A DNA stretch of 43,847 nucleotides from a virus. A model generated the notes under the pieces. It worked only from the letters and a program-made list of their open reading frames with translations. It did no database searches and was not told the DNA's origin. Of the stretch, positions 4,484 through 43,847 are shown one piece after another. The DNA lies in the IMG/VR virus record IMGVR_UViG_3300015194_000005, positions 1 to 43,847 of that record; one strand, 5' to 3'. Position 1 is the stretch's first letter. Every line of letters starts with the position of its first letter. Made by a program: the position numbers and the translations under genes.

Positions 4484-5371
4484 ATGACCCTCTCCCCCAC
4501 CATCCGTCTCGCCCTTCAAAAGCTCTCTGATGCACAAGCTCAGAGACAAGCTCATATTGAGCAAACTCAAGCCAAAAGGTCTGAGGAGAATATGACGAAT
4601 AAGATGATCCAAGCCTTAGAAGGAATCGGAAAGGTTACTTCCTTACAAGGGCCCAAAGGAGATCCTGGTTACACTCCTATTCGAGGTATCGACTACTTCA
4701 CAGAGCAAGATGTACGAATACTTCTGCAAGCTGCTACTCCAATCAAAGGAACCCACTATTTTGATGGAGAAAGTATCCAAGGTGAACAAGGTCCACAGGG
4801 TGAGGCTGGTCCTATGGGGCCCATCGGTAAATCTGGAGTGGATGGCGAGGATGGAGCCGACGTAGATATGGCAGAAGTGATTGCAGAAGCAAAGAAGGTG
4901 GTTGATACAACTCTCAAGAATCTTCCAAAACAAGACTCTTTCCTCTTGGCAGGAAAGAAGGTCTCTACGACAGAACTACAAGACAAGGATATTTTACAAT
5001 ACAATAAAGAGAAGGATCAGTTTGAGTTTGTGAAGCTCCCAAAGAAGGAAGTCCAACCCTTCTTTTCTGGTGGAGGCCCTTCTGCTTCAACTCGCTATCG
5101 TATCAAAACAGTCACTGCTTCTACCGTCCTCGATCCTCTCGATCAGATCGTGTACGGAAATGCTGGAGGAAACATCACGATCACACTACCTTCAGCCGCA
5201 GGACAAGAAGGTACATGGTTGAATATTAAGAAATTGAACGCAAGTAATACCATTACGATAGCTGCCGCAGGTTCGGACACTATTGATGGACTCTCCACTG
5301 TTGTTCTCACTCAACAATATACATCATTAGAATTTGTTTCTAATGGAGTTTCCTCATGGCTGATCAAATGA
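4484..5371 (+). CDS. Collagen-like tail fibre protein
   Basis: 295 residues. The N-terminal 50 residues form a probable charged helix or coiled coil. Two short collagen-like Gly-X-Y blocks follow: GPKGDPGYTP near residue 56, and one near residues 100-125 containing GEQGPQGEAGPMGPIG. After a Lys-rich linker, the C-terminal 90 residues are beta-rich with the repeated NITITLPSAAG and NTITIAAAG style found in phage fibre heads. Collagen-like triplets are common in trimeric phage fibres. It starts just after a C/T-rich stretch and its 3-prime end overlaps the next fibre gene by 16 bases, so the two are probably made together. Confidence 0.8.
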   Translation: MTLSPTIRLALQKLSDAQAQRQAHIEQTQAKRSEENMTNKMIQALEGIGKVTSLQGPKGDPGYTPIRGIDYFTEQDVRILLQAATPIKGTHYFDGESIQGEQGPQGEAGPMGPIGKSGVDGEDGADVDMAEVIAEAKKVVDTTLKNLPKQDSFLLAGKKVSTTELQDKDILQYNKEKDQFEFVKLPKKEVQPFFSGGGPSASTRYRIKTVTASTVLDPLDQIVYGNAGGNITITLPSAAGQEGTWLNIKKLNASNTITIAAAGSDTIDGLSTVVLTQQYTSLEFVSNGVSSWLIK

Positions 5372-7854
5372 GCTACTTACCCGCCAAATATGTCGTACAG
5401 GCTACAGATACAGCTCAGCCTAATGAGCGTGTTCTCACAGCTGGTAGTGGTATTACGATAACAGATGCAGGAGCGAACTCTACAATAACTATTTCTGCAT
5501 CTGGTGGTGGTGGAGGTGCAACCATTGGTGGAACCGTCACAGGAGGAACAGCTAACTCCGTCCTCTACATAAATTCCACAGGGAAGCTGGCACAGGACTA
5601 TCCGAATTTTACCTATGCCCAATCTAGTGGCATATTTACCGCTCCCGTTATATATGGGACAACAGAAGTCTTATCGTCAAGAATCCGTCTCTCGACGGTG
5701 AGCAGTATTTTTGGGGCAGTTCTGTATGCTTCAGATTCGCCAATCGGCGGGACGCTCACAACGGACGTGAATACGTTCTTCTTTCACCCGAATAATAGAC
5801 AACTAGGTGTAGGAATCAACACCTTCATCAGCGGAGAACGAATGCGCGTGAAGGGTGCAACACTTTCTCCGACGGCTCCTACATCGCCCAGTTCCTCTAT
5901 TAACTACAACCAGTCCACGGGTTACAACACCGGAGGCTATTCTCACACCTACAAGATCTATTCATATAAGACCGTCGATGGCGTGACTGCCTATTCACCG
6001 ACGTATATTAGTGGCGGCGTAACGGATGACGGAAGAGTCCTGAGTTCTCCCGCCGCATCGTCATTCAGTGGTTTCCAGAACTTTTCAGGATCAGGCTACA
6101 CCGATGGAACGGACACCATCTCCTACACCCTGATTCCCTATACAGACTATCCAGCGGGGAGAACGATGGGTTCGTCGCAAGCTGTAGGCATCGCAGAATC
6201 AAACTCGGGAAACCCCTTCAGCGTGGATTTCAATTGGGCAGACGTTGGGGCCTCGGGTTATTACTTAACGAGAAACATCTCCTCTATCGGAACAGACGAA
6301 TATCAAGACGTTGGAAACGTCACCAGCTATTCGGATACCAATAGCGGCTTTGGGGCGGGTGCGCCTTCAGATCCAAGTACGGTTCCAGATCGTTACAATG
6401 TTCAGATCTTCATGACTCCTCCGGGTGGAGAGACGGGGTTCATTGTCACACTGTCTGATACCTATAACGGCTATACCGATAACTATTATCGTCTCCTCGG
6501 TCCGGGCACTACCGCATTTTCCGACGACAACACTGGATGGCTCACCCCCACGCCCAATCTCTCAAACACGACCTATCTAGGACCGTGGCTCTATGCCGAA
6601 GGTGACTACACGATTGTAGGGAATGGAACGATCACAGGAAGGATCGACCAGACAGGAGGATTCCATTCTGATAATCTCTTTGGGCAGTTTGATGGAACGT
6701 ACGGAACGGTTGTGCCTATTGCAAAGGGTGGAACGAATAACACGGGATTCACCCCCTCTGAGCTCATCTTCAGTAATGGCTCCGCGCTCCTCTCTGCAAG
6801 TCAACTTTTCTATTTTGAGGGATATGGAGTCACACAGCTACAGCTTTTTTCATCCTACGCCACTAATAAGGGATTACTGATAAAAGGTGCTGCGTCACAA
6901 AGTGGGAATCTCTTGGAGTTCCAGAACATCGCATCGACACCCATAGCCTATGTTTCCAGTTCGGGTCGAGGATCGTTCTCTCAAGATGCAGTGCTTGTCG
7001 GGATCAACCCGAGCAATAATCAAGCAGGTTTCGTCGTTAACGGAAACGCCAGCGGAGCGAACGGCTATGCAAACTGCTACATTTACCGAGGTTCAACATC
7101 GCAGTCTTCTGGCACGCTTAACGGAACGAATGGCAGCAATGAATGGTTCAGCGGCCCGATAGAATCGAGCCAGGACTTCACCTTCTACAACTTCAACAAG
7201 GGCATTCAAGTCGTCCTTGGATATGGTACGAATGCCACAAGAATGACGATCAATACTATTGATAATGCTTCCATAGGATTAGTGGTGAATGCTACGGCTT
7301 CCGCTTCTGTGGATATTCAGCAATGGCAAAAGAATGGTGCAGTGGTTGCATTGGTGAATTCCGCAGGAAATCTCATTCTAGGTCTCGCAGGGACTCAAAC
7401 AGGTACCATAAAATTCAATGGAACAACATCAGGAACCGTAACACTTGTCCCTGCTGCTGCTGCGGGAACATGGACGATGACGCTTCCTACTTCTGGAGGA
7501 ACAAGTGGGTATGTCCTGTCTACAAACGGATCAGGGGTTACATCTTGGGTAGCGCAATCAGGTGGAAGTGGGATCACTCGAAATATTAATAGTGTTTCGA
7601 CGAATACTACGGCAGCAGCAGCTGCATCGACGGACTATGTGTACCTCTGTAGTAGTACTATGACGTTGACCCTTCCTACTGCCGTATCCAATACAAATCG
7701 CTATTCCATAAAAAATTCAGGGAGTGCTACGGTCACAATAGCAACAACTTCCGCACAGACAATTTTTACTACGGCAGCCGTCTCAACACTCACTCTCGCA
7801 CCAGGTGAAAGTTATGATCTTGTTAGCAATTCTAGTAATTGGTTCGTTCTATAA
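5356..7854 (+). CDS. Long tail fibre protein with AKGGTN motif
   Basis: 832 residues, almost entirely Gly/Ser/Thr/Asn-rich beta sequence. A Gly-rich hinge (SGGGGG) occurs near residue 50. A fibronectin-like section near residues 195-330 contains the peptide YSYKTVDGVTAYS, shared with a minus-strand gene at 21800-22231. The motif PIAKGGTNNTG near residue 455 matches the classic phage tail-fibre repeat. The C-terminus repeats the TLTLPT and ATVTIAT strand pattern also seen at the end of the upstream fibre. The ATG at 5356 follows TTTCCTC, the local start context; an ATG at 5368 overlapping the upstream stop is the alternative. Likely a receptor-binding or fibre-shaft component. Confidence 0.82.
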   Translation: MADQMSYLPAKYVVQATDTAQPNERVLTAGSGITITDAGANSTITISASGGGGGATIGGTVTGGTANSVLYINSTGKLAQDYPNFTYAQSSGIFTAPVIYGTTEVLSSRIRLSTVSSIFGAVLYASDSPIGGTLTTDVNTFFFHPNNRQLGVGINTFISGERMRVKGATLSPTAPTSPSSSINYNQSTGYNTGGYSHTYKIYSYKTVDGVTAYSPTYISGGVTDDGRVLSSPAASSFSGFQNFSGSGYTDGTDTISYTLIPYTDYPAGRTMGSSQAVGIAESNSGNPFSVDFNWADVGASGYYLTRNISSIGTDEYQDVGNVTSYSDTNSGFGAGAPSDPSTVPDRYNVQIFMTPPGGETGFIVTLSDTYNGYTDNYYRLLGPGTTAFSDDNTGWLTPTPNLSNTTYLGPWLYAEGDYTIVGNGTITGRIDQTGGFHSDNLFGQFDGTYGTVVPIAKGGTNNTGFTPSELIFSNGSALLSASQLFYFEGYGVTQLQLFSSYATNKGLLIKGAASQSGNLLEFQNIASTPIAYVSSSGRGSFSQDAVLVGINPSNNQAGFVVNGNASGANGYANCYIYRGSTSQSSGTLNGTNGSNEWFSGPIESSQDFTFYNFNKGIQVVLGYGTNATRMTINTIDNASIGLVVNATASASVDIQQWQKNGAVVALVNSAGNLILGLAGTQTGTIKFNGTTSGTVTLVPAAAAGTWTMTLPTSGGTSGYVLSTNGSGVTSWVAQSGGSGITRNINSVSTNTTAAAAASTDYVYLCSSTMTLTLPTAVSNTNRYSIKNSGSATVTIATTSAQTIFTTAAVSTLTLAPGESYDLVSNSSNWFVL

Positions 7855-7858
7855 TTTT

Positions 7859-10000
7859 ATGAGTTTCCAAATCTCCAAAGGCAATCCATCTTCCTTCTTC
7901 GTTGCTGCTTCCGATGCAACGGCAGCAGACAAGCAACGTGCGGATTTTGTGTGTTCCGGCACAGCCGATCAGACGCAGATTAATACCTACATTACGAAAT
8001 TACTGGCTAATGGCGGAGGGGCCGTCTATCTCTCTGAGGGAACTTTTACCCTATCGGCCACTATAGCGATCACAGGCGATGGGACATCGAATGGACCGAC
8101 CGTTAGTATCCTTGGAGCAGGGAATAGGAATACTATCCTGGTTCCTTCTACAGGAACGCATGGTGTCACCATCGCAGGAGCGACGCAGGTGAAGATATGG
8201 GATATTCAATTCAACTTACTTGGAACAAGTGACGCGATCCACTCAACAGCTCCTGTCGCTTCTCCCTATTGGTCCTTCTGGCAGTCGAGCTTTAAGAACC
8301 TTTTCATCAAAGGAGACTTCTCGGCTCACTCAGGATGGGCGATGAATCTTGAAGCTCCTTTCCGCTCTACGTTCGAGAACATCGAAGCACAGGGGCTGGG
8401 AAACGGCATCTATCTTAAGTCTACAAACGTGAACTTCAATCCTGGGAACTGTACGTTCATCCGCTGCTTCATGGATCTAAACGCGGCAGTCAATGGGGTT
8501 GCCTACAAGCTCCATACTCAAGACGGCAAGGGTCTGATGAATATTTGTACATTCATCCAGTGCGAAGCAATAGACTCGAAGGCTTCTTCCACTACGTCGA
8601 TTGGCTGGTACTTACTCGGTAGTACAACGGATTACCACCAGACGAAAGATATTGTCATCATCAACTCAAATATTGAGCAGTTCAATACTTGCGTGAAACT
8701 TGTGCATTCGTCTGATAACGACATTACTTTGTCCTATGCAGACACGAAAAATTCTTCCGCAACGGGCGCCATCTTCGACTTGTCTAGTACGGTCCAAGGT
8801 GGATCGACCAAGAATGAATGCTACGCACGATCTGGTTACGTCGCACCAAGCACCACGACGAATTTTGTGAACGACGGGAATACGGATGCAAATGCTTCAA
8901 ATATCTTCGGTAAGTTTGAAGCGTATGTAGATACAGGTGCAACCCTCTCAGCCACTACTACTTCGGCAACCATTCTAAAGGAAGTACATTCAACGGGAGT
9001 CGGGACAATTGATGCAAAGCTCACAGGGTTTCCTCTACCAGGGAACAAGATTCAGGCTGTGAAAGTTTCTTCTACGTCACCGACGTCGAACCAAGTTCTC
9101 ACAGCAACATCCTCTACAGCTGCCGGATGGTCTACACCAAGTACGAATGCTGCGACCGTTACGACGAATGCTAATCTCACAGGACCAATTACATCCGTCG
9201 GAAATACTACGTCCATTGCTTCGCAAACGGGGACAGGAACGAAGTTTGTCGTAGATACTTCCCCATCTCTCATTTCTCCTACTGTATCCTCTGGAGACCT
9301 GACCATCACGAGTGGAGCGATACAGGCTAATTCACAAGTACTATTCAATTCCAATGTCTACACCCAGTTCCAGGCAAACGTGGCAAACATTAATTTGAAT
9401 TTCAAGACCGTGGCAGGAACAGGAGGAATAGTTTGTACGGTCAATGGTTCTAAAGATGCCTTTATCGTTAATAGCACTGGAGTACTTCAGGGGCTCGCAG
9501 GAGGTTCTAGTGGGTCTTCTAAAATAGGTGGGATTATTTTCAATAGCTTCACGGATACTTCAAGTACAAGTACGAACGGGACAGAGGATGATCTGTATTC
9601 CTACACCATCGCTGCCAGCACGCTTGCGATTAATGGTGATAGTCTCTACCAGCGCGAACATGCACAGTTCGTGTCCTCAGCAACAGCTTCACGACGTATT
9701 AAGAAGTATTTTGGAGGTACACTCATCTTTGATTCTGGTGCATTGACTCTGACGCTCGGTGGAGATTTCATTCTCGATACACAGGTTATTCGGGAATCGT
9801 CTAGCGTTGTCAGAGTGAGTGTGAGTGTGGTTACGACCTCTGCTTCCTCCGTTCCATACGCAACATATACCCGCATTACTGGTCTTACATTGACCAATAC
9901 CCAAGTTCTCAAAACAACTGGCATTGCGGCAGGTACAGGCGCAGCGAGTGGAGACATCATCAATAAACTTTCTAAGGTAACATTCGAACCAGCCGCTTGA
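7859..10000 (+). CDS. Tailspike-like protein with pectate-lyase-type beta-helix
   Basis: 713 residues. The N-terminal domain has the signature of right-handed beta-helix tailspikes: a conserved start with ADFVCSGTADQTQINTYI, then GGGAVYLSEGTFTLSATI, then short repeating strand turns to about residue 340. The remainder is Thr/Ser-rich fibre-like beta sequence ending in a compact C-terminal domain. Such spikes bind or degrade surface glycans; no catalytic residues can be assigned by eye. I chose the ATG at 7859, five bases after the upstream stop, over an in-frame ATG at 7805 inside the previous gene because the family fold begins after it. Confidence 0.8.
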   Translation: MSFQISKGNPSSFFVAASDATAADKQRADFVCSGTADQTQINTYITKLLANGGGAVYLSEGTFTLSATIAITGDGTSNGPTVSILGAGNRNTILVPSTGTHGVTIAGATQVKIWDIQFNLLGTSDAIHSTAPVASPYWSFWQSSFKNLFIKGDFSAHSGWAMNLEAPFRSTFENIEAQGLGNGIYLKSTNVNFNPGNCTFIRCFMDLNAAVNGVAYKLHTQDGKGLMNICTFIQCEAIDSKASSTTSIGWYLLGSTTDYHQTKDIVIINSNIEQFNTCVKLVHSSDNDITLSYADTKNSSATGAIFDLSSTVQGGSTKNECYARSGYVAPSTTTNFVNDGNTDANASNIFGKFEAYVDTGATLSATTTSATILKEVHSTGVGTIDAKLTGFPLPGNKIQAVKVSSTSPTSNQVLTATSSTAAGWSTPSTNAATVTTNANLTGPITSVGNTTSIASQTGTGTKFVVDTSPSLISPTVSSGDLTITSGAIQANSQVLFNSNVYTQFQANVANINLNFKTVAGTGGIVCTVNGSKDAFIVNSTGVLQGLAGGSSGSSKIGGIIFNSFTDTSSTSTNGTEDDLYSYTIAASTLAINGDSLYQREHAQFVSSATASRRIKKYFGGTLIFDSGALTLTLGGDFILDTQVIRESSSVVRVSVSVVTTSASSVPYATYTRITGLTLTNTQVLKTTGIAAGTGAASGDIINKLSKVTFEPAA

Positions 10001-10034
10001 AGTTCACCCGCTTAATTCTTTCCTTCTTCTCTCT

Positions 10035-10373: not shown

Positions 10374-10379
10374 TATCTT

Positions 10380-11660: not shown

Positions 11661-11825
11661 ATGAACCAAGACCTCACCAAGACAGAGAAGATTGCTCTCG
11701 CACTACTCTGTGCGGAAAAGACAAGGCGTGGTATCCTTGTGGAAGAGGAACTGGATGCAATAGAAAGAGCGTTCACCCTTGCATATAAGTTTGGCGATGT
11801 ATCCCATAAGCATACAAGGATATGA
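11661..11825 (+). CDS. Small helical protein (54 aa) coupled to amidase
   Basis: 54 predicted residues, mostly helical and charged (LTKTEKIALALLCAEKTRR, then VEEELDAIERAFTLAYKFG). The stop overlaps the amidase start as ATGA (11822-11825), implying translational coupling. No known domain. It could regulate or chaperone the endolysin; this is inference from coupling only. Confidence 0.6.
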   Translation: MNQDLTKTEKIALALLCAEKTRRGILVEEELDAIERAFTLAYKFGDVSHKHTRI

Positions 11826-12382
11826 AGTACGTCTTCCTACACCATAGTGCATCCAGCACGCCAGGATTGCAGCTAAATGAGATAAATGCATACCATAAAT
11901 CGAAGGGTTTCACTAAAAGTACGCTTTCCTTTTATGTCGGATATAACTTCGTACTGGACCGCAACTTTCAAGTAACCCAAACACGCTCAGAATTTGAGGA
12001 AGGCTGTCATACCGTCACTCCTAAATTTCCAGATGCAAACAAGAATGGCATTGGTATTTGTATGGCTGGGGACTTTACGAAAGAGATTCCTAGCCCCGCA
12101 CTCCTCAACCTCTTAGCTCCTCTTCTTGCTGATATACAGGTCCGCCATAGGATTCCAGAGAGTGAAGTCTGGTTACATCGAGAGGTAGAGAACATGCCAG
12201 GGGGGACGTATACAGAGTGTTGCGGCCAGGATTTTCGCAGTTTAACAAAGGCTCTAAGGAAAACGTGGCTTCAGAACAAGATCAACAGCCTCCGAGAGTT
12301 GATTGTGAAGACAAACCAGCCTCGAACATCTACGGTACAAGTCTACTTAGATTCCTGTATCTGGCTTCTCGCACAACTTTAG
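11822..12382 (+). CDS. N-acetylmuramoyl-L-alanine amidase (Amidase_2/PGRP family endolysin)
   Basis: 186 residues. Family landmarks in order: HHSA at residues 7-10 (first zinc ligand), YHKSKGF at 24-30, the YVGYNFVLD strand at 38-46, GCHT at 61-64, the GIGICMAGDF core at 76-85, HR at 119-120 (second zinc ligand) and the TECCGQDF loop at 131-138 where the third, Cys ligand is expected. This is the fold of T7 lysozyme and PGRP amidases, which cut the bond between MurNAc and L-Ala. There is no signal peptide, so export should need the neighbouring holin. About 40 C-terminal residues form an extra helix. Confidence 0.9.
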   Translation: MKYVFLHHSASSTPGLQLNEINAYHKSKGFTKSTLSFYVGYNFVLDRNFQVTQTRSEFEEGCHTVTPKFPDANKNGIGICMAGDFTKEIPSPALLNLLAPLLADIQVRHRIPESEVWLHREVENMPGGTYTECCGQDFRSLTKALRKTWLQNKINSLRELIVKTNQPRTSTVQVYLDSCIWLLAQL

Positions 12383-16163: not shown

Positions 16164-16187
16164 GAGTAGGGGGGTAAGAGTTAAGAG

Positions 16188-16676: not shown

Positions 16677-16697
16677 AGATAGGGGGAGAAATAAGAG

Positions 16698-18132: not shown

Positions 18133-18780
18133 CTATAGAAGCTGTTTTAGCCTGAACAAACTTGTCATTCTTTGGCTGTAGTCTTTACCCTCTGCCATGA
18201 GTTTTATATCCGCTTTCTGAATAGTTTTTAATAGAGCTAATTGCGGAGGTGTAGCTAGTTGCCGTTGGCCACTCTCTGATGATCCAAATACAATCTTATT
18301 GATCATTCTGATTTCGTTTTTGTAGACTTCAATGTCTGTAGGCTTGAGATGGTCTTTAATCGACGCTGTTAAGTCTTTATAGTCATCCCCTACTTCATTA
18401 CGCAAAGAAATCAGATTATCATAGATCCATTCGATACAAAGCACCTTAAAATCGGCTGAGAGCCACATGGCAAAATCTATAAATTGGTATGGGTGCATCC
18501 ACGTTCCTCCTCGGTCACTCTTCATACCTTTACTTGTCCTAATAATGTCGTCTGACAAGAACACTCTATCAGAGTGATCTTGGTTTAAACGCCTTAGAAG
18601 GGCCTCAATCATCTCTTTGGTCTCTGGCCTCTTCATGTAATGGTCTAATCTTTTCTTAGTTTTGTGGATCTGCTTATTATAGACGACAAGGAGGTCATTG
18701 GCATTAAACATCCCATCTTTGCTTTCTTGCCGCACTTCATGGCTTCCAAGAACCCTCTTCATTATAACGGATGTTTTCAT
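18133..18780 (-). CDS. KilA-N domain protein (antirepressor-like)
   Basis: 215 residues. Residues about 24-120 contain the KilA-N fold: NANDLLVVYN, a central basic helix, and the signature GGTWMHPYQFIDFAMWLS at 91-108 followed by CIEWIYDNL. KilA-N proteins bind DNA and act as antirepressors or regulators in many phages. The C-terminal half is helical and charged with no clear second domain. It stands between a terminator upstream (18824-18857) and the CGTAC array downstream, so it has its own transcript. Confidence 0.85.
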   Translation of the reverse strand: MKTSVIMKRVLGSHEVRQESKDGMFNANDLLVVYNKQIHKTKKRLDHYMKRPETKEMIEALLRRLNQDHSDRVFLSDDIIRTSKGMKSDRGGTWMHPYQFIDFAMWLSADFKVLCIEWIYDNLISLRNEVGDDYKDLTASIKDHLKPTDIEVYKNEIRMINKIVFGSSESGQRQLATPPQLALLKTIQKADIKLMAEGKDYSQRMTSLFRLKQLL

Positions 18781-19261: not shown

Positions 19262-19309
19262 AAAGTGGGGGAGAAAAGAAAGATAAAATAGACGAGTTAA
19301 GGATAGTTG

Positions 19310-20932: not shown

Positions 20933-20972
20933 AGAGTGGGGGGTGAGGAAGTAGGTTTGGATGTGTGACTCA

Positions 20973-22231: not shown

Positions 22232-22253
22232 AGATTGGGGGAGAAATAAGGAA

Positions 22254-29414: not shown

Positions 29415-29479
29415 GAAAGAAGAAAAAATTGCATCGTGAAAAATATGAGCTTAGACTAGAGACTCTTTCACCCCCTACC

Positions 29480-30314: not shown

Positions 30315-30695
30315 ATGCCGAAACACGCAGGAGGACGGCCAAGCGAATATGAAGCAAAGCATACTGCTTTCGCTCTTTCGTATGTAACTCTCTACGAAGG
30401 TCTAGGTGATGCCGTTCCTACAGTAGAAGGCTTATGTGATGAACTAGGAATTTCTAAACAATGTTGCTATGAGTGGGGAGATAAGTTCCCAGAGTTTGGT
30501 GACGCCCTAGCTGCTATTAAGGTCAAACAGGGCCGTTTGCTCCAATCTAAGGGTTTAAACAATCAAACAAATTCTGTCATTACTAAGCTCATGCTCTCCG
30601 CTAATCATGGCATGGCTGAGAAGACAGAACAGGATCTTACAAGTAAGGGCGAGAAGATTACTGGTGTTGCTGTAGAGTTCATTAAAGCCAAATGA
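30315..30695 (+). CDS. Terminase small subunit-like protein
   Basis: 126 residues. Basic start (PKHAGGRPSEYEAKHTAFAL), then an HTH-like region (VEGLCDELGISKQCCYEWGD, KFPEFGDALAAIKVKQGRLL) typical of small terminase subunits that recognise phage DNA, and a C-terminal tail with VAVEFIKAK. Position directly upstream of the large subunit, overlapping it by four bases, supports the call. Confidence 0.82.
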   Translation: MPKHAGGRPSEYEAKHTAFALSYVTLYEGLGDAVPTVEGLCDELGISKQCCYEWGDKFPEFGDALAAIKVKQGRLLQSKGLNNQTNSVITKLMLSANHGMAEKTEQDLTSKGEKITGVAVEFIKAK

Positions 30696-32050
30696 CAATC
30701 CTTAAAGCACAATGCCCTGAAATCTTAGAGCCACTTTACAATGACTATCTCCGATATGTTATCCTTGAAGGAGGAAGAGGTGGGATGAAGTCTCATGGAG
30801 TAGCGACTTCTCAACTTGTCAGAGGAATGAAGCGTCCTATGCTGTTCCTTGACGCTCGTGAGATCCAGAAGTCTATAGCCGATTCTGTTCATGCTCTCCT
30901 TGAAAAGAAGATCAATGACCTTGGAGCTGGTAGCTTCTATAAAATTTTAGATAACGAGATTCGAGGAGATAACGGGACGCGCTTCATATTTGCCGGGTTA
31001 AGACACAATATCTCGAACATTAAATCCATCGAAGATGTGGACGAATGTTGGGTAGAGGAGGCACAAACCGTGAGCGATGCGACTTGGAAGACGCTTATAC
31101 CCACTATCCGTAAAGAAATCTCGCCTTGTTGTTATGTTGCGTTAGGGATGGGCACAGAGGCACAGAAGCCTTGTTCTAAATGTGGGAGAGAGATTCCGCT
31201 CAATAAGATTATCCCTTCAAGAATCGTCGTTACCTTTAACCCAGATCTAGAGAGTGATCCAACCTATCAAAGATTCGTGGTCAAAACTCCAAGCAATAGT
31301 ATCCACATAAAGACGAGCTATAAGGACAATCCTTGGTTCACAGGCGTCATGAGGCAGGATATGGAAGACTTAAAGGCAGACAACTACCAAGACTATCTTC
31401 ATGTGTATGAAGGACATTGTAAGTCTTCTGTTGATGGTGCTATTTACGCTGAGGCTCTACAAAAAGCTCGTGACGAAGGCCGAATAGGAGAATTTAAGTA
31501 TGACACCCGTTACCCTGTGTCAGCCTTTGCAGACATCGGATGGGCAGATAACACTTCTTTCTGGTTCCTACAGTTGATTAACGGACGGCCTAGGGTTATT
31601 GGGTGCTATCAGAATCAATTCAAGCGCACACCGTTCTACATAGAACAACTAGAGGCGAGAAAGTATAGATATGATCGTATTGTCCTGCCTCACGATTCAG
31701 AGAATGAACACGCTAATGCCGAAAGAACATGGCTACAGATGTTCCAGAAGTCTTTTCCTAACACTAGGGTCTATGCAGGGAAGAGACAGGCTGTTGAATT
31801 ACGTTTAGAGGCCACAAAGAACATGTTTGATCTTGCTGAGATTCATCAGGATGGATGTTCGGATGGTCTATTCGCTCTCGCACATTATCATTATGCTATT
31901 GATCCAGATACGAAGAAAACGACGAGAGAGCCTTTCCACGGGCCAGAGTCGAACTACGCTGATGCGTTTGGATATATGTGGCTTGAGATGATAGAACCAA
32001 AGAGACAGAGAGAGAGTTTTAAGAAGAATAGTATTTATACAACAGTTTAG
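30692..32050 (+). CDS. Terminase large subunit (PBSX/Terminase_3-like)
   Basis: 452 residues. The ATPase half has the Walker A-like LEGGRGGMKSHG (Lys 33) and the Walker B region DVDECWVEEAQTV at about 115-127. The C-terminal nuclease half has YPVSAFADIGWADNTSF around 273-289, with the Asp expected for metal binding, and VLPHDSENEHA further on. It packages DNA into proheads through the portal. Odd detail: a Cys pair (PCSKCGRE) near residue 155, a possible zinc insertion in the ATPase-nuclease linker area. Confidence 0.9.
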   Translation: MTILKAQCPEILEPLYNDYLRYVILEGGRGGMKSHGVATSQLVRGMKRPMLFLDAREIQKSIADSVHALLEKKINDLGAGSFYKILDNEIRGDNGTRFIFAGLRHNISNIKSIEDVDECWVEEAQTVSDATWKTLIPTIRKEISPCCYVALGMGTEAQKPCSKCGREIPLNKIIPSRIVVTFNPDLESDPTYQRFVVKTPSNSIHIKTSYKDNPWFTGVMRQDMEDLKADNYQDYLHVYEGHCKSSVDGAIYAEALQKARDEGRIGEFKYDTRYPVSAFADIGWADNTSFWFLQLINGRPRVIGCYQNQFKRTPFYIEQLEARKYRYDRIVLPHDSENEHANAERTWLQMFQKSFPNTRVYAGKRQAVELRLEATKNMFDLAEIHQDGCSDGLFALAHYHYAIDPDTKKTTREPFHGPESNYADAFGYMWLEMIEPKRQRESFKKNSIYTTV

Positions 32051-34873: not shown

Positions 34874-34875
34874 CT

Positions 34876-36419: not shown

Positions 36420-36446
36420 ATTTTGTACCTCTTACTTTTCTAATAT

Positions 36447-37493
36447 ATGGCTTTTAACACATTAGGATTCAATGAATTCGTGGACAACGTAGAGCGCACC
36501 GTCCTCGAACAGATCCAAACGGCTAAACCTAACATGGTTCGCTCACTCTTCCGCTCTGTTCCTTGGAATCCAGGGGATGGAGAGAAAGTAACCTTTAACT
36601 CGGTTTGTCTCTCTGGTTTCGCACCACGCGTAGTAGAAAATGAAAACTATACTGTTGTGAACCCAACGAAAGGCAATGAACTCTCTAAGACGCAGTTGCA
36701 ATTCGGCGATAAGCTTGAAATCACTCGTCGTATGATGAAGTTCAATGACCGTTACGCAAACGCTCAATTCGATGCTCAGGCTCTCGTTCGTCGTTTGATG
36801 AACTCTCTCGACCTTGAGATGACGATGCAGTGTTTCGCAGAAGCTGATCAGACCACCTTTACTCCTCTTTCGAGCACAGGTGCAGCCTATAACATCGCCA
36901 CAAGTGATGCTCAGCCTCTCGTCTCTACTGCTCACTCCTACGGTGGTGTGACATTCAGCAACATGTTGAGCAACGCCACACAGGCAGGAGGTGTTGCCCC
37001 AGTTCTCTCTATCGGTAACGTGACTGCTGCTATCACTGCGATGGTACAGAACACGCCAGACGACTTTGGAACGTATATCGCTCCTCAGCCAGACACTCTC
37101 TTGATTGCGAACGAACAGACCATGATCGTAAAAGCTCATCAGATGTTCGGTTCCTCTCTCACCCCAGAGTCTGCTAATAACGCTGTAAACTATTACGGTG
37201 GAGCTGGTTCTATGAAGGTGATCGCACTGAACTTTGGTGATCGCAAGCCTAACGGCGCTGTTGATGCCAATGCTTCGACAACGAATATGTATCGCTGGGC
37301 AGTTCTCGACTCCAACATGATCGCTCGTGCATGGCAGTTGATGATGGCCGAGGACCCAACACCAGAACAGAAGTTCACGGACTCAGACAACGTTCTGGCT
37401 AAAATCCTTGTAACGCAGTTCGCTGCTTACGCTATCGTTCAGCCACAGGGATCGATCTACTCGCTTTCGATCACGAAGCCTACTCTTAGCTAA
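36447..37493 (+). CDS. Major capsid protein
   Basis: 348 residues of mixed alpha/beta sequence: N-terminal helix (FNEFVDNVERTVLEQIQTAK), a beta extended loop region (EKVTFNSVCLSGFAPRVVEN), a spine-like helix (RRLMNSLDLEMTMQCFAEAD) and a conserved-looking beta end with FTDSDNVLAKILVTQFAAYA. HK97-fold coat proteins have this length and order. Position after scaffold and decoration genes strongly supports it. Codon choice is strongly skewed to GCT, GTT and CTC, fitting a highly expressed gene. Confidence 0.85.
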   Translation: MAFNTLGFNEFVDNVERTVLEQIQTAKPNMVRSLFRSVPWNPGDGEKVTFNSVCLSGFAPRVVENENYTVVNPTKGNELSKTQLQFGDKLEITRRMMKFNDRYANAQFDAQALVRRLMNSLDLEMTMQCFAEADQTTFTPLSSTGAAYNIATSDAQPLVSTAHSYGGVTFSNMLSNATQAGGVAPVLSIGNVTAAITAMVQNTPDDFGTYIAPQPDTLLIANEQTMIVKAHQMFGSSLTPESANNAVNYYGGAGSMKVIALNFGDRKPNGAVDANASTTNMYRWAVLDSNMIARAWQLMMAEDPTPEQKFTDSDNVLAKILVTQFAAYAIVQPQGSIYSLSITKPTLS

Positions 37494-37508
37494 TTCCCCC
37501 CTTTCCAA

Positions 37509-38120: not shown

Positions 38121-38128
38121 TTTCCTCA

Positions 38129-38152
38129 CTCTGATCTCTACGGAGGTCGGAG
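38129..38152 (+). other. UACG-tetraloop hairpin after 38120
   Basis: Ten-pair stem CTCTGATCTC / GAGGTCGGAG with two G-U pairs and a TACG loop of the stable UNCG type. There is no U-run, so it is more likely an RNA stability or processing element than a terminator. Confidence 0.6.
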
Positions 38153-38178
38153 ATGAGTAAATTTCCCCCCTACCTTCT

Positions 38179-38490
38179 ATGGATGGTCCTAACTTCGAAA
38201 GCCTCTTCCAGTCAATGAACTGCCTCAATGGTGAAGCAAACTTGAAAGAGATCGTTCAGTATCTGCGCTTCTCAAAGAGCGAAGGTGGCTACCAGACGTT
38301 CCTCGCACACTATCTCCCCATGCTCCCAAAAGAAGAATTTGATGAGTTCATTGTTGATGTCACTGATTCTGCAAAATCCGAAGAATTGAAGAAAGGGTTT
38401 GAGGTCAAAGAGGAAGAAGAGACAGTTGAGAAAAAGAAGCCAGGACGTCCTAAGAAGGAAGAACCTATTTCCTCACCCGCCTCACTATGA
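38179..38490 (+). CDS. Small protein with AT-hook-like tail (103 aa)
   Basis: 103 residues: helical body (LFQSMNCLNGEANLKEIVQY, EEFDEFIVDVTDS), then an acidic-Lys tail with KKKPGRPKKEEP, the AT-hook core GRP flanked by Lys. Start tract TTTCCCCCCTACC. Could bind DNA at the vertex or bridge head proteins. The stop overlaps the next start by four bases. Confidence 0.65.
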   Translation: MDGPNFESLFQSMNCLNGEANLKEIVQYLRFSKSEGGYQTFLAHYLPMLPKEEFDEFIVDVTDSAKSEELKKGFEVKEEEETVEKKKPGRPKKEEPISSPASL

Positions 38491-38813
38491 TCTCCTCACG
38501 AACACTCTGGGCACCTACCGTTGGATCAACAGTCCTCCTTGCTGGTAAAGGAGTGACGAGACTTTGTGATCTTGAAGTACAAAACGGCACTGCCGCCATC
38601 CTCTACGTTCAGTTATTCAATGCAGCTTCTGCAAGCGATGTGACGATAGGGACTACGGCACCTGACAAGGTTATTAAAGTAGAAGCCAGCGTTGCTGTGC
38701 ATAGAAGTTTCCCTAACCCACCAGACTTCCCGCTTGGGCTTTGCTACGCGTCGACAACGACAGCCACGGGCTCTAGCACTGCTGCATGTTCGATTAATTT
38801 TGATCTAGCGTAA
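38487..38813 (+). CDS. Small head-tail protein (108 aa)
   Basis: 108 residues, beta-rich with hydrophobic strands (VGSTVLLAGKGVTRLCDLEV, AAILYVQLFNAASASDV). Resembles small virion surface or joining proteins. Start tract ATTTCCTCACCCGCCTC. Not a recognised family. Confidence 0.6.
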   Translation: MISSRTLWAPTVGSTVLLAGKGVTRLCDLEVQNGTAAILYVQLFNAASASDVTIGTTAPDKVIKVEASVAVHRSFPNPPDFPLGLCYASTTTATGSSTAACSINFDLA

Positions 38814-38827
38814 TCCCCCTTCTGAAG

Positions 38828-39703
38828 ATGGCCAATCCCTTAGTCAGTGAAATCATCACACGTGCTCGGGGACTAATCCGAGCAGAACAGGGTAGTGATG
38901 TCCCTGCTGTTTCAGATGATTTTATGATCTCTGCCATCTCTGATGCAGACAAAGAACTTTTGAGAGCTTTTCGAGGAGGTGGAGGGAATACTCCCTCTTC
39001 TATAGCCAGAGAGACGGGATTTAATCTTGCCTCAGAGACTGCTATCAATGACGTTAATGGTGTAACAACAGCAAGCACCTCGATCACTGTAGATTCTACG
39101 ACTGGGTATGATTCTGCTGGAGCTGCGATGTTTTGGGATAAGGAAATGTTTGACATCTTCTACTACACAGGAATCACGGCTACGACGTTCACGGGTGTCA
39201 CAGGGATTCAGTTTTCTCACACCGATAATACTGCCATTCAACCACTGCAAGCTCTCCCAGCCAACTTCAAGAACTTTCGGCACACTGAACAGTATGGAGA
39301 TGGCGTGAGTTTGAACGGTTTCCCTCTAACTTATATGGAAGGGCCACCCCTTCAAGGGAAATTCTCTATGGTGAATGATGGAACGACCACTTACTTGTGG
39401 TTATTCCGTGGTTCTACAGGCACCGCAGGAGTCTACTACGACAAATCAGGCTCAAGCATCACGACGACAGGGGACAGCGTCTCATTTTATGATGATTCTC
39501 TCTATTTCTACGTCTGGAGGTGTATCGAAATGTGTCTATTTGGCAGAGGAGAATACCAAACGATCCAAATAGCCAAGCAGAAGGGTGATTATGTCAAATT
39601 AGACGTCCTCAAGGATAGAAATAACGGCAGGAGAGTACGAGTCCGACAATTCCAGCCTGTTGGTTCTAATTACCGTCTGGCTTTACGTGAAAACGCTTTA
39701 TGA
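38828..39703 (+). CDS. Head-tail adaptor-like protein
   Basis: 291 residues. The N-terminus VSEIITRARGLIRAEQGSDV then SDDFMISAISDADKELLRAF is the helical start seen in podovirus tail-tube adaptors (gp11/TTPA-like) and other head-tail connectors. A beta domain follows, ending in a basic strand (RNNGRRVRVRQFQPVGSNYR). Located between small head genes and a likely nozzle protein. Start tract AATCCCCCTTCTG. Assigned by architecture and order. Confidence 0.62.
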   Translation: MANPLVSEIITRARGLIRAEQGSDVPAVSDDFMISAISDADKELLRAFRGGGGNTPSSIARETGFNLASETAINDVNGVTTASTSITVDSTTGYDSAGAAMFWDKEMFDIFYYTGITATTFTGVTGIQFSHTDNTAIQPLQALPANFKNFRHTEQYGDGVSLNGFPLTYMEGPPLQGKFSMVNDGTTTYLWLFRGSTGTAGVYYDKSGSSITTTGDSVSFYDDSLYFYVWRCIEMCLFGRGEYQTIQIAKQKGDYVKLDVLKDRNNGRRVRVRQFQPVGSNYRLALRENAL

Positions 39704-41760
39704 GTGAAATTACTATCCCCTACGTCAGCTTGCGCCGTCCTTGGACTGGTTTCAAATCATACTTTAGTGATCCAGCCAATGCAGGGTACAACAACCTCTC
39801 TTCCCCTTCTCAGAACTGTCTCATCACAGAGTCAGGAAGTGTGGAAAGCAGGAAAGGATACATGGCTGAGTTCTCTATTGGTGTAAATGGAAGTCCTGCT
39901 ACAGCTTTTTACCTTTCAACCTATGAAGTCGCTTTCTTTGCTCTCGGAACAAAACTCTATTATCGAGACTTTACAACGGCAGCGACCTACGACACGGGGA
40001 TCACTCTCACGACTGGGACGACGACGAGATTCGCTGAATATAATGGAGATATTTATTGTACTAATACGACTGACGGACCTCGACGAATTGTCTGTATGAG
40101 ACTCAATGGAAACGTCGCAGCTGGGGATACCTCTATCACGGTAGACGCAGACGGACTTTCACGCTTGCAGGTCTTTAGTGTTACGTCTGGGAATCTGATC
40201 ATTAACGGTACAGCTGAAGCCTTCACAAACCCTATTGTTCCTTACGGTTCTATTAATGGTGCAGTGACTGATGGAGGATTGATTAAAATAACTTCTACTG
40301 CGAATCATAACCTCCTCACAGGGGACTCTATTACGATCACAGGAGTTACAGGCACAACTGAGGCAAACGGAACGTGGACGGTGACGAAGATCGATGCTAC
40401 CCATTTCGATCTACAGACTTCCGTCTTCACGAATGCGTATGTCTCTGGTGGAGCATTTACATGGGATTATTCAGGTGGATCAGGTGGAAAGGTTCATCTC
40501 ACGACCACGGCAAGTCAGGCGTATACAGATAACACGTTCGCTCTTGTCGTTCAGAATATCTCTTCTGTTGTTGGGATTGAAAAGCCAAGTAAGATTGAGT
40601 TTTGGAAGTCTCGCCTTCATTTGATGGGATTCCCTTCGACAAAAAATGTTGATCAGCCTAATAACTCCGTTATTGCTGGTCAATTCATCGACGGTCAAGC
40701 GAACGAAATACAAAACATTATTGATTTTACCTATGGAACTGGTGGAGCGACGAAAATAACAGTCGGTTCTGGAGGTAAACTCACGAATATCTTAGGTGTA
40801 AAGGACTTCCTGTACTTCTTCCTTGAGAACAAAACTTATGCAGCAAACTCTGCGGATGTTGTAAAATCAGGTTCTGGGATAGGGAATACCGTCCCCGAGA
40901 TTAAAGACGAGCTACACGGGTGTCTCAACGAAGACTGCGCAACGATTATGGGTGAGAGCGGACTTCTCTACGCCACAAGTGACAAACGCATCATGATGAT
41001 CTCGACTGCTACCGACACGGGAGCTGCTGTAAGTGCCCCACAAGAAGACTTTGACGTTCCTATTAGGGGACATCTTGTAAATATGGACAACGATCAAACT
41101 GGAGCTCTTGTGTACCACTATAGAGGTGGACGGCAGACGATCTGCCAGTTAAAAGTTAGTGGTCAGTGGTATTGGTTCATCTATGACCATAACATCGTCA
41201 TTAACCTCGGCCAGACGACGCAGAATGGAGCATGGCAGCCTCCTCAGTCTATTTCTCCTGTCACTGCCTTCATGGAAAGGAATGGAGTCCTTTATGGAAC
41301 CGACTCATCAACAGATACGGTCTACAGTTACTTCACAACCTTCACGGATAACTTGAACCCTATTCAAGTGGTTGTTGCTACGGGAGAATTTAACGTAGGA
41401 AGTGCGATGATGAAGACTGCCATGATGCAGGGAACGATCAACCAACCTTCGCAGATTAACATGAACTGTTATGTGGTAAACGAAACACTCGGAAGGCGTA
41501 CTGGTTCAGCAAAGATCGTCAATGGGTCGGACTACAACTACAGTGATGACCAGTCTGTCGGTGCAGTCCCTGTAGGGAGTGGAGGCATAGGGCAGTCAAC
41601 GCCTATCGCAAAGTGGAAGAGGGAGTTTGGTGTCTATCCTTCCGAGGCGAACCGCGTTCAACTTATTGCAACAAACTTCCAAGATGGTGGTTACTTTAGT
41701 GTTTCCTATTACTCCCTTGTTGGAGATTCTTATCCTGGCACATTTAAGCCTCAGCTCTAA
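39700..41760 (+). CDS. Tail nozzle/stabilisation-like protein with FCCH-type insert
   Basis: 686 residues. The start reads YVSLRRPWTGFKSYFSDP, NNLSSPSQNCLITESGSVES and RKGYM, the usual opening of podovirus nozzle (TTPB-like) or stabilisation proteins. A small beta insert near residues 185-250 (SANHNLLTGDSITITGVTG, TTEANGTWTVTKID) matches the repeating Ig/FCCH-like module common in phage. Beta-propeller-like region follows (GVLYGTDSSTDTVYSY). Overlaps the adaptor by four bases. Likely forms the tail tube end. Confidence 0.7.
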   Translation: MSEITIPYVSLRRPWTGFKSYFSDPANAGYNNLSSPSQNCLITESGSVESRKGYMAEFSIGVNGSPATAFYLSTYEVAFFALGTKLYYRDFTTAATYDTGITLTTGTTTRFAEYNGDIYCTNTTDGPRRIVCMRLNGNVAAGDTSITVDADGLSRLQVFSVTSGNLIINGTAEAFTNPIVPYGSINGAVTDGGLIKITSTANHNLLTGDSITITGVTGTTEANGTWTVTKIDATHFDLQTSVFTNAYVSGGAFTWDYSGGSGGKVHLTTTASQAYTDNTFALVVQNISSVVGIEKPSKIEFWKSRLHLMGFPSTKNVDQPNNSVIAGQFIDGQANEIQNIIDFTYGTGGATKITVGSGGKLTNILGVKDFLYFFLENKTYAANSADVVKSGSGIGNTVPEIKDELHGCLNEDCATIMGESGLLYATSDKRIMMISTATDTGAAVSAPQEDFDVPIRGHLVNMDNDQTGALVYHYRGGRQTICQLKVSGQWYWFIYDHNIVINLGQTTQNGAWQPPQSISPVTAFMERNGVLYGTDSSTDTVYSYFTTFTDNLNPIQVVVATGEFNVGSAMMKTAMMQGTINQPSQINMNCYVVNETLGRRTGSAKIVNGSDYNYSDDQSVGAVPVGSGGIGQSTPIAKWKREFGVYPSEANRVQLIATNFQDGGYFSVSYYSLVGDSYPGTFKPQL

Positions 41761-41770
41761 CCCCTTTTCT

Positions 41771-43303
41771 ATGAAAACCCTTCAATCTATCTTCAAGTAT
41801 ATCTCTAAGAGTACGACTTCGACTCTCACAGGCATTCTTGTCCTTTCCTTAGTGATTCGACTTGGGATTTCTATTACACACGCTGCTGGATCGTATGACG
41901 TTACTAACGAGTCACAGATGTTCCTCGATAACTCGATCAATGGAACACAGACGACAGGCATTGTCCTTTCATCCCCTCAACTGAACGGTGCTGCTCAGCG
42001 TTTCTCTACAACATCAGGCGCAGTCCTTCGCATTCGTTACGGGAACTACCGTGAGGACATTTACACCTCTTCTGCAACGATCAACACAGTCACGAATAAG
42101 GTGACACTTGTTGGAGTGACAAGAAATATATGTCCACAGTTTGGAAGAAGTTTTATCTCTTGCGGGAATGGTCGTTCTTGGGGAAAAGGAGCGATCGTAG
42201 AGTTGAATGTGGATGCTCGTCTGTTAAACCTAAAGGCAAACGTTGATCGTGGGAATAACTTCACAGCTTCGGGAGCGATTGCCTTTCTAACGAACGGTAG
42301 TGGGTCACTGATCCAACCTGTTTATACTACGACAACTCTTCGTGATCATAATCTTGGTGCTGTGCCTCGCTTTGGAATGTCTGCTTGCACTTCTGATACA
42401 GGTCTTTGTTATGACGGTCTTGGTGGAGCTTGGGTTGCTCGTGGTTCTAATGCTACGGCGAATGCAAGTGAGACTGTTGCTGGTAAAGTTCAACTTGGAA
42501 CAATTCTCGATCAAATCGCAAAAACTATACTCGGTTCAACGGGAGCACCGACTGTTGTGCAAACGAAGTATCTTACAAGTTCTGGATCTGTACATGGGAC
42601 GAACGATTCTGTGAACGCAGGAAGAGTGCTCATGCTGAATTCTTCTGGAGCTATTTCTGCAACGGTAGGAGGTCTTGGACGAGTTAATGCTACCTCGGGA
42701 GCACTCATTGTTGCTCAAGGTTCTGGTGCTGTTCGTCTTATTACTCCAGCTCCAAACGGATATTTCTTAAAATCCAATGGAACGAGTTGGGGGAGTGGAA
42801 CAACAACCGTGACTACTCAGGTAGTCTTCGTAGCTTCTTCCTCTTCCACTTCTACAGGTGCAACGAGCACGAAGAACTTCACGTTTGACACAAACCAATA
42901 CACGATTCCTGCGAATACACTTGTAGCTGGTGTGTGTTATGAGTTTGATGCGTATTCAAATTATACTACTGGAGGATCCTATACGGTGCAGCCAAATATC
43001 CAAGTTGGTCCAAGCGGAGATCAGGCAGCGGGAATTTATACAACTGCTGGATTATCCAATATCCACCACATGTCTTCTGTATGCGGAACGGGGGCGGCTG
43101 GTGCTGCTGTGAATGTACGTATCGGGACAAGTTATACCGTGAATAAAACAACAGCGAATAGTGCTCAGTATTCAGAAATCACTAAAGCCACAAATGGGCC
43201 GATCCTTGTACGTTTAGGAGGAATTTTTGGAACGTCTGATGCAAGTAATAGTGCTCAGTCTGTCATGCTCATTGTCAGAAAAATTTCTTCTACTGGATTC
43301 TAA
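41771..43303 (+). CDS. Fibre-like protein with predicted signal peptide
   Basis: 510 residues from the ATG at 41771 (context AACCCCTTTTCT), chosen over 41627 inside the previous gene. Leader: KTLQSIFKYISK, hydrophobic LTGILVLSLVIRLGI and a THA-A cleavage-like site near residue 40. The rest is beta-rich Ser/Thr/Gly sequence with Cys pairs (RNICPQFG, ISCGNGR) and fibre-like repeats. An export signal on a phage tail protein is unusual. May be displayed on the host envelope or use the leader as a membrane anchor. Confidence 0.68.
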   Translation: MKTLQSIFKYISKSTTSTLTGILVLSLVIRLGISITHAAGSYDVTNESQMFLDNSINGTQTTGIVLSSPQLNGAAQRFSTTSGAVLRIRYGNYREDIYTSSATINTVTNKVTLVGVTRNICPQFGRSFISCGNGRSWGKGAIVELNVDARLLNLKANVDRGNNFTASGAIAFLTNGSGSLIQPVYTTTTLRDHNLGAVPRFGMSACTSDTGLCYDGLGGAWVARGSNATANASETVAGKVQLGTILDQIAKTILGSTGAPTVVQTKYLTSSGSVHGTNDSVNAGRVLMLNSSGAISATVGGLGRVNATSGALIVAQGSGAVRLITPAPNGYFLKSNGTSWGSGTTTVTTQVVFVASSSSTSTGATSTKNFTFDTNQYTIPANTLVAGVCYEFDAYSNYTTGGSYTVQPNIQVGPSGDQAAGIYTTAGLSNIHHMSSVCGTGAAGAAVNVRIGTSYTVNKTTANSAQYSEITKATNGPILVRLGGIFGTSDASNSAQSVMLIVRKISSTGF

Positions 43304-43327
43304 CGCCTACTCCTTTCGCCCAATAAA

Positions 43328-43847
43328 TGGCTACTCTCTCTTCCATACAGGCACTTCAAAAGAACGCTGGGGTTAAACCAACGACTGCTCCTATGACATC
43401 TACTCAGACGGCAGTTGTTGCTAAGGATCAGGATGCGACACATGCCGCCACTATTCCTGCCGCTGCCCATGAAGGGATGACTCCAAGTTATAATCCTACG
43501 GATGCTGCGTATCTTGAGAAAGGTGCAAACTCAGGAGGAATTGGTGCGAGTGATCAACACGGTAGACAACTTTTACAAGGGGGAAGCTCTACAGGAGCTC
43601 AAGAACTTGGCACAATCTATGCAGGAATCGACGCGAAGGCTAAGGCTCAAGCTGCGTCTGGGCAGTCTATCGATCCTAATGCTATTGCAAATGAAAAGGC
43701 CGCTGCTGCCGCTCAGTATCAGGCACAACAGAATGATGCCGCTCATGCTCATGCTGCCGCTATTCAGAAGCAACAGAATGATATTGCGAATATGAAAGGA
43801 ATTACTGCGACAACGCCCGGTGGTATTCAAGCTCAACAGTTCGCACA
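43328..43847 (+). CDS. Partial Gln/Ala-rich virion protein at right edge
   Basis: 173 codons are visible, open to the right edge. Thr/Ala-rich start (MATLSSIQALQKNAG) followed by Gln/Ala/His coiled-coil-like sequence (AIANEKAAAAAQYQAQQND). Composition and gene order fit the 5-prime part of the M15 gene that enters at the left edge. Joining the edges directly would shift the frame, so some bases would be missing. Start context CTCCTTTCGCCC. Confidence 0.72.

Follow-up and report, generated by a model that had tools for sequence, protein, structure and literature searches.

A positioned pyrimidine tract at gene starts of a podovirus-like phage clade and its likely Peribacterales hosts

Many gene starts in a viral DNA of 43,847 nucleotides, analysed over its whole length and called the window here, are preceded by a C/T-rich tract which was confirmed to be real. 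We consider it fairly probable (roughly 0.6) that this tract is a host-matched, positioned translation-initiation element which replaces the Shine-Dalgarno (SD) sequence in a clade of uncultured, podovirus-like phages, that the hosts are Peribacterales and that the element is read without an anti-SD. The placement of the tract in the sequence suggests that it acts in translation. The question addressed is how start codons are found in bacteria that have lost both SD and anti-SD, for which the tract offers a testable positioned signal, along with a bacterial lineage and a group of phages where this signal would replace the SD.

Gene starts of the window

A first-pass annotation had described C/T-rich sequence before most starts and had picked starts partly by this feature, so the enrichment was re-tested with tests blind to the tract. 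All 17 starts named in the annotation are ATG. Between -20 and -3 CCCC was found at 13 of them, CCCCC at nine and an SD 4-mer at none, and mean C+T at -20 to -6 was 0.82 as compared to 0.50 (sd 0.16) at 1439 other ATGs. C+T outside the called genes was likewise 0.50 (plus strand), hence the tract is not intergenic background, and the annotation was borne out against both random ATGs and intergenic DNA.

Tract-blind gene calling was performed with a codon-based caller which gave 43 genes and replaced a hexamer version that had given only 21. CCCC was present at 13 of 42 ATG starts called in this way against 3% of other ATGs in the window, while SD 4-mers were depleted (3/42, 7%, against a background of 16%). 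The C/T enrichment and the scarcity of SD motifs were both upheld, but for the CCCC form the annotation's wording of most starts goes too far, as this form was limited to about a third of tract-blind starts. In ORFs of at least 100 codons mean C+T was 0.60 at the 5'-most ATG (n = 54) versus 0.47 at inner in-frame ATGs (n = 245; P = 4e-6). In a motif-centred test covering both strands, 31 runs of at least five C (C5+) were counted, and 16 of them ended 4–9 nt upstream of an ATG that begins an ORF of 40 codons or more. The chance level for this spacing is 3.2% (binomial P about 2e-16), and a set of 300 first-order Markov sequences contained a mean of 0.36 and a maximum of 3 such placements. Chance may account for some of the ORFs behind C5+ runs, which are short or lie antisense to other genes.

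The choice of starts by the tract raises the concern that it is an artefact of that choice or of base composition. The tract-blind calls, the random-ATG, inner-ATG and Markov controls and the held-out AUC given below all speak against this, as do eight comparison phages which were biased the opposite way and SD-enriched, and we give an artefact next to no weight.

The consensus is approximately TTTCCCC, with T at -15 to -13 and C at -12 to -9. Base frequencies for C were.50,.46 and.49 at -12 to -10 and for A.19–.28 at -14 to -6, and G was depleted. The individual tracts and two of the genes are as follows:

37496..37501, plus strand: C6 tract before ATG 37509 (203 codons); L016 ortholog with C6 at the same place
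38165..38170, plus strand: C6 tract before ATG 38179 (103 codons); C5 in L016, T/C-rich in L017
38815..38819, plus strand: C5 tract before ATG 38828 (291 codons); C6 in L016, pyrimidine-rich in L017 and L003
32284..32288, plus strand: C5 tract before ATG 32296 (47 codons)
29471..29475, plus strand: C5 tract before ATG 29480 (66 codons)
36427..36446, plus strand: C/T-rich leader of the major capsid gene (ATG 36447), with no C4 run
16169..16174, minus strand: C6 tract before ATG 16163 (149 codons)
16682..16686, minus strand: C5 tract before ATG 16676 (162 codons)
19267..19271, minus strand: C5 tract before ATG 19261 (131 codons)
20938..20943, minus strand: C6 tract before ATG 20932 (34 codons)
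22237..22241, minus strand: C5 tract before ATG 22231 (143 codons)
30692..32050, plus strand: terminase large subunit (PF04466, 6e-39; phrog_3717, 9e-55), the anchor for finding relatives
36447..37493, plus strand: major capsid protein, assigned from homology with the gene annotated as such in MW202647

Among other individual starts, that at 2139 appears SD-like and that at 30692 is without a tract.

Related and comparison phages

The pyrimidine excess was common to six related phage records with a GC content of 37–63%, and CCCC was clearly enriched in four of these; phages L035 and L039 had CCCC at about one start each. When the seven records were pooled, 50 of 198 starts had CCCC (5.9 expected) and 11 of 198 had SD 4-mers, which were not enriched (25.4 expected), and TTCCC was the most enriched 5-mer of the clade. 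At several orthologous starts the letters differ while the pyrimidine richness is kept in L016, L017 and L003, and the leaders of the capsid-gene orthologs in these three phages are likewise C/T-rich. A start matrix trained on the six relatives, with the window starts held out, gave an AUC of 0.745 on the window starts, 0.60–0.78 on nine Peribacterales genomes and 0.19–0.54 on 12 comparison phages.

The nearest annotated phage, the P22-like podovirus MW202647 (Manatee Spring), has a terminase that is 69% identical, the other matched genes being mostly about 23–36% identical, and also carries the tract. Phages L004–L007, more distant by terminase, have ordinary AAGGA/AGGAG-type SD sequences (the tract-blind start comparison covered L004, L005 and L007).

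Frequencies of C at -12 to -9 were.56,.51,.56 and.43 before operon-internal genes (n = 99) and.43,.38,.43 and.28 before first genes (n = 81), and this sharper tract inside operons argues against a promoter. A transcription or DNA-level element of any kind (promoter, regulator site, packaging or replication motif) would accommodate the 15 of 31 C5+ runs which lie elsewhere than 4–9 nt before an ATG-ORF, but it is very unlikely given that strand and spacing of the tract track the ORF start with a peak inside operons, that the tract recurs at ortholog starts and that bacterial gene starts bear the same motif.

Bacteroidota-type SD-independent initiation (Flavobacterium, Prevotella) is likewise without SD, and in part of this group the anti-SD core is gone as well according to PMC3522020 and the sections of PMC10783764 covered here. 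Flavobacteria show an A-rich bias (PMC3522020), whereas the tract of the phages is C/T-rich, has its C core at -12 to -9 and is depleted in G, and the leaders of tract starts were not A-rich.

Candidate hosts

Comparison with candidate hosts revealed the same positioned tract in Peribacterales, the order of Candidatus Peribacteria UBA11694 and a little-studied group of very small candidate-phyla bacteria, where SD was not significantly enriched. From these start signals and from composition we infer that Peribacterales are the likely hosts of the phage clade. TTCCC preceded 28 of 221 starts in G024 and 19 of 182 in G177 (4.5 and 2.4 expected, respectively), and CCCC preceded 11 of 106 in G295 (1.6 expected) despite a pattern ratio below 1 in that genome. 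Across the 74 order genomes the forward/control pattern ratio was at least 2 in 58 and below 2 in the other 16, with values below 1 in G134, G293, G295 and G296. An extra C excess at -3 to -1 in G024 was absent from the phages. As regards leaderless initiation, with an mRNA 5' end at or beside the start codon, host first genes have -10-like k-mers near the ATG; in the phages the tract peaks at operon-internal genes.

The candidate order was first chosen by the tract. A genome scan by the tract pattern gave at least 120 stretches, and 40 of these 120 loci were surveyed and used only to reach diverse genomes; as the matches were apparently mostly chance, no host was named from the pattern count. 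Among the surveyed loci G024 was notable for density at its size (46 hits versus 9 in the control, 1.4 Mb), with similar hit-to-control ratios elsewhere (G023, 94:16; G040, 52:10; G004, 68:14; G005, 34:7). Pattern counts alone are undiagnostic, since G004 (Nitrospira, 13 starts) and G190 were pattern-enriched yet SD-enriched at starts.

Tetranucleotide composition, which is independent of the tract, matched the order with an AUC of 0.93 for the window, 0.94 for L034, 0.77 for L038, 0.75 for L037 and 0.69 for L039, as compared to 0.29–0.67 for eight comparison phages. Support from composition was weak for L003 (AUC 0.65, P = 0.06) and L035 (AUC 0.60, P = 0.15). Because the nine reference genomes are relatives, these P values overstate the significance. 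Searches with MCP, portal and terminase, run without a positive control, found no phage-host protein link to Peribacterales: MCP matched 0 of 74 order genomes, portal 0 of 353 genomes of the class and terminase 1 of 74 order genomes, a doubtful match in short contigs of G269 without the tract, and a terminase search of genome contigs gave no match.

The host could be another SD-poor lineage, for example Akkermansia-like Verrucomicrobiota, with the tract reflecting a general pyrimidine preference there. Pattern ratios of 3–6 were common among 155 Verrucomicrobiota surveyed, and four further genomes were sampled for starts. The MAG G040 (record L108, named Akkermansia muciniphila; 36 starts) is SD-poor and had a matrix AUC of 0.81, as high as the phages, G023 and G328 scored 0.64 and overlap the lower Peribacterales values, and Akkermansia is given as SD-scarce with a conserved CCUCC in the sections of PMC10783764 covered. 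However, the pyrimidine excess of G040 is diffuse (about -28 to -1) and in composition this MAG comes 53rd of 109 for the window, while of five other Verrucomicrobiota G390, G345 and G419 use SD, G328 is without C-tracts (1/57) and G023 is ambiguous (29 starts). A 16S gene of G040 was looked for and gave no match in its available DNA. We regard such a host as unlikely and prefer Peribacterales. A cyanobacterial host was dropped because cyanophages L008, L009, L011 and L012 (50-kb parts for three of the four) were enriched in SD and poor in pyrimidines upstream of starts.

Viruses of candidate-phyla bacteria resist host assignment, and the tract may be of use in connecting phages with such hosts. 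Gene callers which expect an SD may set starts wrongly in the genomes concerned.

16S tails and reading of the tract

A 16S match was obtained in 57 of 70 order genomes searched and tails were read for 41. CCUCC was missing in 38 of the 41 (39 of 42 distinct genes) and kept in three, GGATCA was found in none of the 42 distinct readable genes, and CCUCC was present in 10 of 10 genomes outside the order. The changed host 16S 3' end proposed in the first-pass annotation thus fits the best host candidate. As an explanation of the tract it fared less well, as order members G259 and G270 keep CCUCC yet still have C-tracts and the commonest degenerate Peribacterales tail showed no pairing with the tract (AUC 0.28). 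Candidate-phyla genomes G190 and G091, outside the order, use SD and have CCUCC; such SD-using neighbours, and order members with and without CCUCC, provide natural contrasts.

That one Peribacteria species has lost the anti-SD is published, as category iv of PMC10783764 (SD-scarce, without CCUCC) includes Ca. Peribacter riflensis with 7% SD, and also lineages such as Absconditabacteria, Wolfebacteria and Campbellbacteria; the sections of that paper covered here report no pyrimidine replacement signal. The present analysis adds the tails over 41 order genomes and the positioned pyrimidine tract in the order and in phages.

Start regions paired worse with a canonical anti-SD tail than random ATGs did (AUC 0.27), which excludes canonical anti-SD pairing as the signal, as had been anticipated from the likeness of the tract to the anti-SD itself. 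Pairing of start regions with helix 45 gave an AUC of 0.62. SD pairing might be inverted if the host 16S 3' end extends beyond the former anti-SD into a conserved purine stretch AGGGAR that pairs with UUCCC/CUCCC of the mRNA. Downstream of the degenerate anti-SD, 40 of 42 distinct readable genes of the order have AGGGA, which is complementary to TTCCC, and G234, with AGGAAA instead, showed no TTCCC enrichment (4/149 starts, 4.1 expected; CCCC weak, 12/149, 6.2 expected). The same purine stretch, however, follows canonical anti-SDs of other bacteria (CCTCCTTTCTAGGGAG in G091, G099 and G180) so that a precursor or spacer function is the simpler explanation for it. Extended-tail duplex energy barely separates starts from other ATGs (AUC 0.56), and a single deviating genome does not amount to covariation; the pattern count of this genome, G234, is moreover not low (79 versus 33). 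We hold inverted pairing to be distinctly improbable. It is a rather doubtful proposition that the order as a whole and its phages swapped the polarity of the ribosome signal, with a pyrimidine element in the SD position being read specifically, either by a purine tail of the 16S or by a protein devoted to it, for instance their S1 with its unusual C-terminal extension.

With the host-matched initiation element that we favour, the 30S subunit would bind a single-stranded, C/T-rich stretch lying at the SD site and would need no anti-SD pairing for this, and the reader would most likely be ribosomal protein S1 or another platform protein. The signal would be matched to the host in that Peribacterales genes carry the same tract, are non-SD and have mostly lost the CCUCC anti-SD. 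S1-driven initiation, also raised in the first-pass annotation, may operate here. S1-dependent (RPS1) non-SD initiation shares with the present case the missing SD, a pyrimidine-rich region and S1-domain proteins in the candidate hosts, but differs in that the tract here has a fixed position and a C core and the start regions were no less structured than those of SD phages. S1 prefers U/A-rich RNA. S1-domain proteins were found in 12 of 12 bacterial genomes searched, including eight of this order in which several S1-domain matches fell within one open frame of about 440–530 aa.

The pyrimidine tract at gene starts of the window

The window, 43,847 bases long, is a phage of P22-like podovirus kind, whose portal, capsid and tail genes match those of MW202647 (L003, from Manatee Spring), mostly at about 23–36% identity. 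A search of the window for tRNA genes found none. Three of its genes are:

30692–32050, terminase large subunit (PF04466)
11822–12382, Amidase_2
18133–18780, KilA-N

The terminase was 69% identical to that of MW202647 (30124–31491) compared with mostly 23–36% for the neighbouring structural genes, a contrast which, judged from these two records, looks like gene exchange. Positions 39700–41760 encode a tail or stabilization-type protein with a match to the ubiquitin-activating E1 FCCH domain (PF16190, 9e-8).

The first-pass annotation had claimed that a C/T-rich tract replaces the Shine-Dalgarno (SD) site at most starts. All 17 starts which it named carried ATG, 13 of them were preceded by CCCC and none by an SD 4-mer, and mean C+T content at −20 to −6 was 0.82 compared with 0.50 for the 1439 other ATGs. 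Since these starts had been picked using the tract, three tests independent of it were applied. Sixteen of the 31 runs of five or more C on both strands ended 4–9 nt upstream of an ATG with an ORF of at least 40 codons (background 3.2%), while 300 Markov sequences gave a mean of 0.36 and a maximum of 3. Gene calls made blind to the tract placed CCCC at 13/42 starts, compared with 3% of other ATGs, and SD 4-mers at 3/42, compared with 16%. Within long ORFs, C+T was higher before the 5′-most ATG than before inner ATGs (P 4e-6). As enrichment was observed in all three tests the tract is real, although the CCCC form is found at about one third of tract-blind starts rather than at most of them.

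Related phages and position of the signal

Searches with terminase, tail, portal and capsid proteins recovered MW202647 and the IMG/VR contigs L016/L034, L017/L018/L035, L037 (one contig with L033), L038 and L039; a further contig (L015/L019/L036) gave the same identities as L017/L018/L035. The capsid proteins of the IMG/VR contigs were 63–87% identical to that of the window and the L003 capsid 26%, and GC ranged from 0.37 to 0.63. Start analysis of L003, L034, L035, L037, L038 and L039 revealed more pyrimidine before starts than before other ATGs in all six (weakest in L038, 0.53 vs 0.47) and SD enrichment in none. CCCC was clearly enriched in L003, L034, L037 and L038, and was present at about one start each in L039 and in L035, where the tracts are T-rich. 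At several orthologous starts the leader stays C/T-rich while the letters differ. An exact-pattern scan of the viral collection, with the tract as typed from L003 starts, returned 12 stretches, of which L033 was later placed in a clade member. Eight comparison phages (L004, L005, L007, L010 and cyanophages L008, L009, L011, L012) were SD-enriched and pyrimidine-poor, and these together with L001, L006, L013 and L014 scored 0.19–0.54 with the clade matrix.

When 198 tract-blind starts were pooled over seven phage records, T at −15 to −13 was.43,.49 and.37, C at −12 to −9 was.50,.46,.49 and.38, and G at −12 to −9 was.06–.10. The distance from C-run to ATG is mostly 4–9 nt, the region of the G peak (−11 to −7) in SD-using phages. 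The signal was stronger at operon-internal genes than at first genes, and therefore fits translation better than transcription. The portions consulted of the open-licence literature on Peribacteria, on initiation in Patescibacteria/candidate phyla and on C-rich or non-SD phage motifs describe no such tract.

Peribacterales as candidate host

The tract pattern was surveyed in 39 genomes, drawn from 40 of at least 120 loci matched by a genome scan. Candidatus Peribacteria bacterium UBA11694 (G024, record L076) was pattern-dense for its genome size; several other genomes had comparable ratios. At least 25 matches were counted in six of 192 genomes from the phylum of G024, and five of these six belong to its order. 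We call this order Peribacterales, a name suggested by the record title and used for an order at NCBI; a sixth member of the order in this sample, G134, showed no enrichment. The remaining pattern-rich genome, G190, was found by start analysis to be an SD user.

By start analysis CCCC exceeded expectation in all nine Peribacterales genomes (G024, 36/221 vs 9.7 expected; G177, 20/182 vs 4.4; G295, 11/106 vs 1.6), with the smallest relative excess in G234 (12/149 vs 6.2). SD enrichment was significant in none of the nine, the highest being G270 (5/17 vs 2.7, P 0.12). In the large samples, G024 and G177, the profile is phage-like, with T near −15 and C at −12 to −9, but flatter and with extra C adjoining the ATG. 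A matrix from the phage relatives gave AUC 0.60–0.78 on the nine genomes, weak recognition of genomes G023 and G328 (0.64), and also 0.81 on 36 starts of G040, a Verrucomicrobiota MAG. This MAG (L177–L179, recorded as Akkermansia muciniphila) is SD-poor with a diffuse pyrimidine excess from about −28 to −1, and is possibly an independent SD-free lineage.

Kmers resembling −10 elements (TGCTA, TACACT, TATACT) were enriched within 20 nt of the ATG in G024, G177, G285 and G234 (L160–L199, L265–L284), with the strongest enrichment at first genes, which suggests many leaderless mRNAs in Peribacterales alongside the tract class.

Tetranucleotide usage, corrected for base composition, was compared over all bacterial sequence in 8-kb pieces between nine Peribacterales genomes and 99 others. 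The window matched the order with AUC 0.93 (ranks 1, 3, 4, 6, 7, 11, 17, 20 and 38), and so did, among its relatives, L034 (0.94), L038 (0.77), L037 (0.75) and L039 (0.69); the match was not significant for L003 (0.65) or L035 (0.60). The eight comparison phages gave 0.29–0.67, and the top match of the Planktothrix phage was a cyanobacterium (Spirulina). Composition provides independent support for Peribacterales as candidate host. Counting against this host, MCP homologs were found in 0/74 genomes of the order and portal homologs in 0/353 of the class, and the one terminase match (G269) lies on short contigs without the tract.

16S rRNA tails and reading of the tract

We compared 42 distinct 16S genes from 41 Peribacterales genomes, two more being unreadable. 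CCUCC was kept in 3/42, the most frequent tail being GGAACACUUCCUUA (17/42), and was present in 10/10 genomes outside the order (17 searched, 11 with a 16S match, 10 reaching the 3′ end). Its loss in Ca. Peribacter riflensis is already seen in Table 4 of PMC10783764. CCUCC-keeping members also have C-tracts (G259, 6/99 vs 1.0 expected; G270, 4/17 vs 0.5), and therefore the tract is independent of the final loss of the core.

Pairing of phage start regions with the canonical anti-SD was worse than at random ATGs (AUC 0.27). An attractive but weak explanation is inverted pairing of the tract with a purine element, AGGGAR, that comes after the old anti-SD; however, this element also follows canonical anti-SDs in other bacteria, and such pairing separates starts poorly (AUC 0.56). 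Most likely, recognition of the tract would take place on the platform of the 30S subunit and involve no anti-SD pairing, and S1 may be its reader. S1-domain proteins were found in 12/12 bacterial genomes searched. In 7/8 Peribacterales genomes (L343, L347, L348, L345, L346, L342, L340) the likely ribosomal protein S1 carries a conserved C-terminal extension, following the S1 domains, with a pattern like VASKTGKKYY..A..IKEENRV.F...EAEKAGYSA. The extension was absent from G285 (L349) and from S1 of G190 and G091, two candidate-phyla genomes outside the order, and a Pfam scan of two extended proteins (L343, L340) named no domain in it.

GAUCA is the binding site of the GTPase Era, which PMC10582724 gives as lost in most candidate-phyla bacteria. 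None of the 42 distinct readable Peribacterales genes has the usual GGATCA after helix 45; each has GGAACA or a variant in its place (loci L220–L264, L294).
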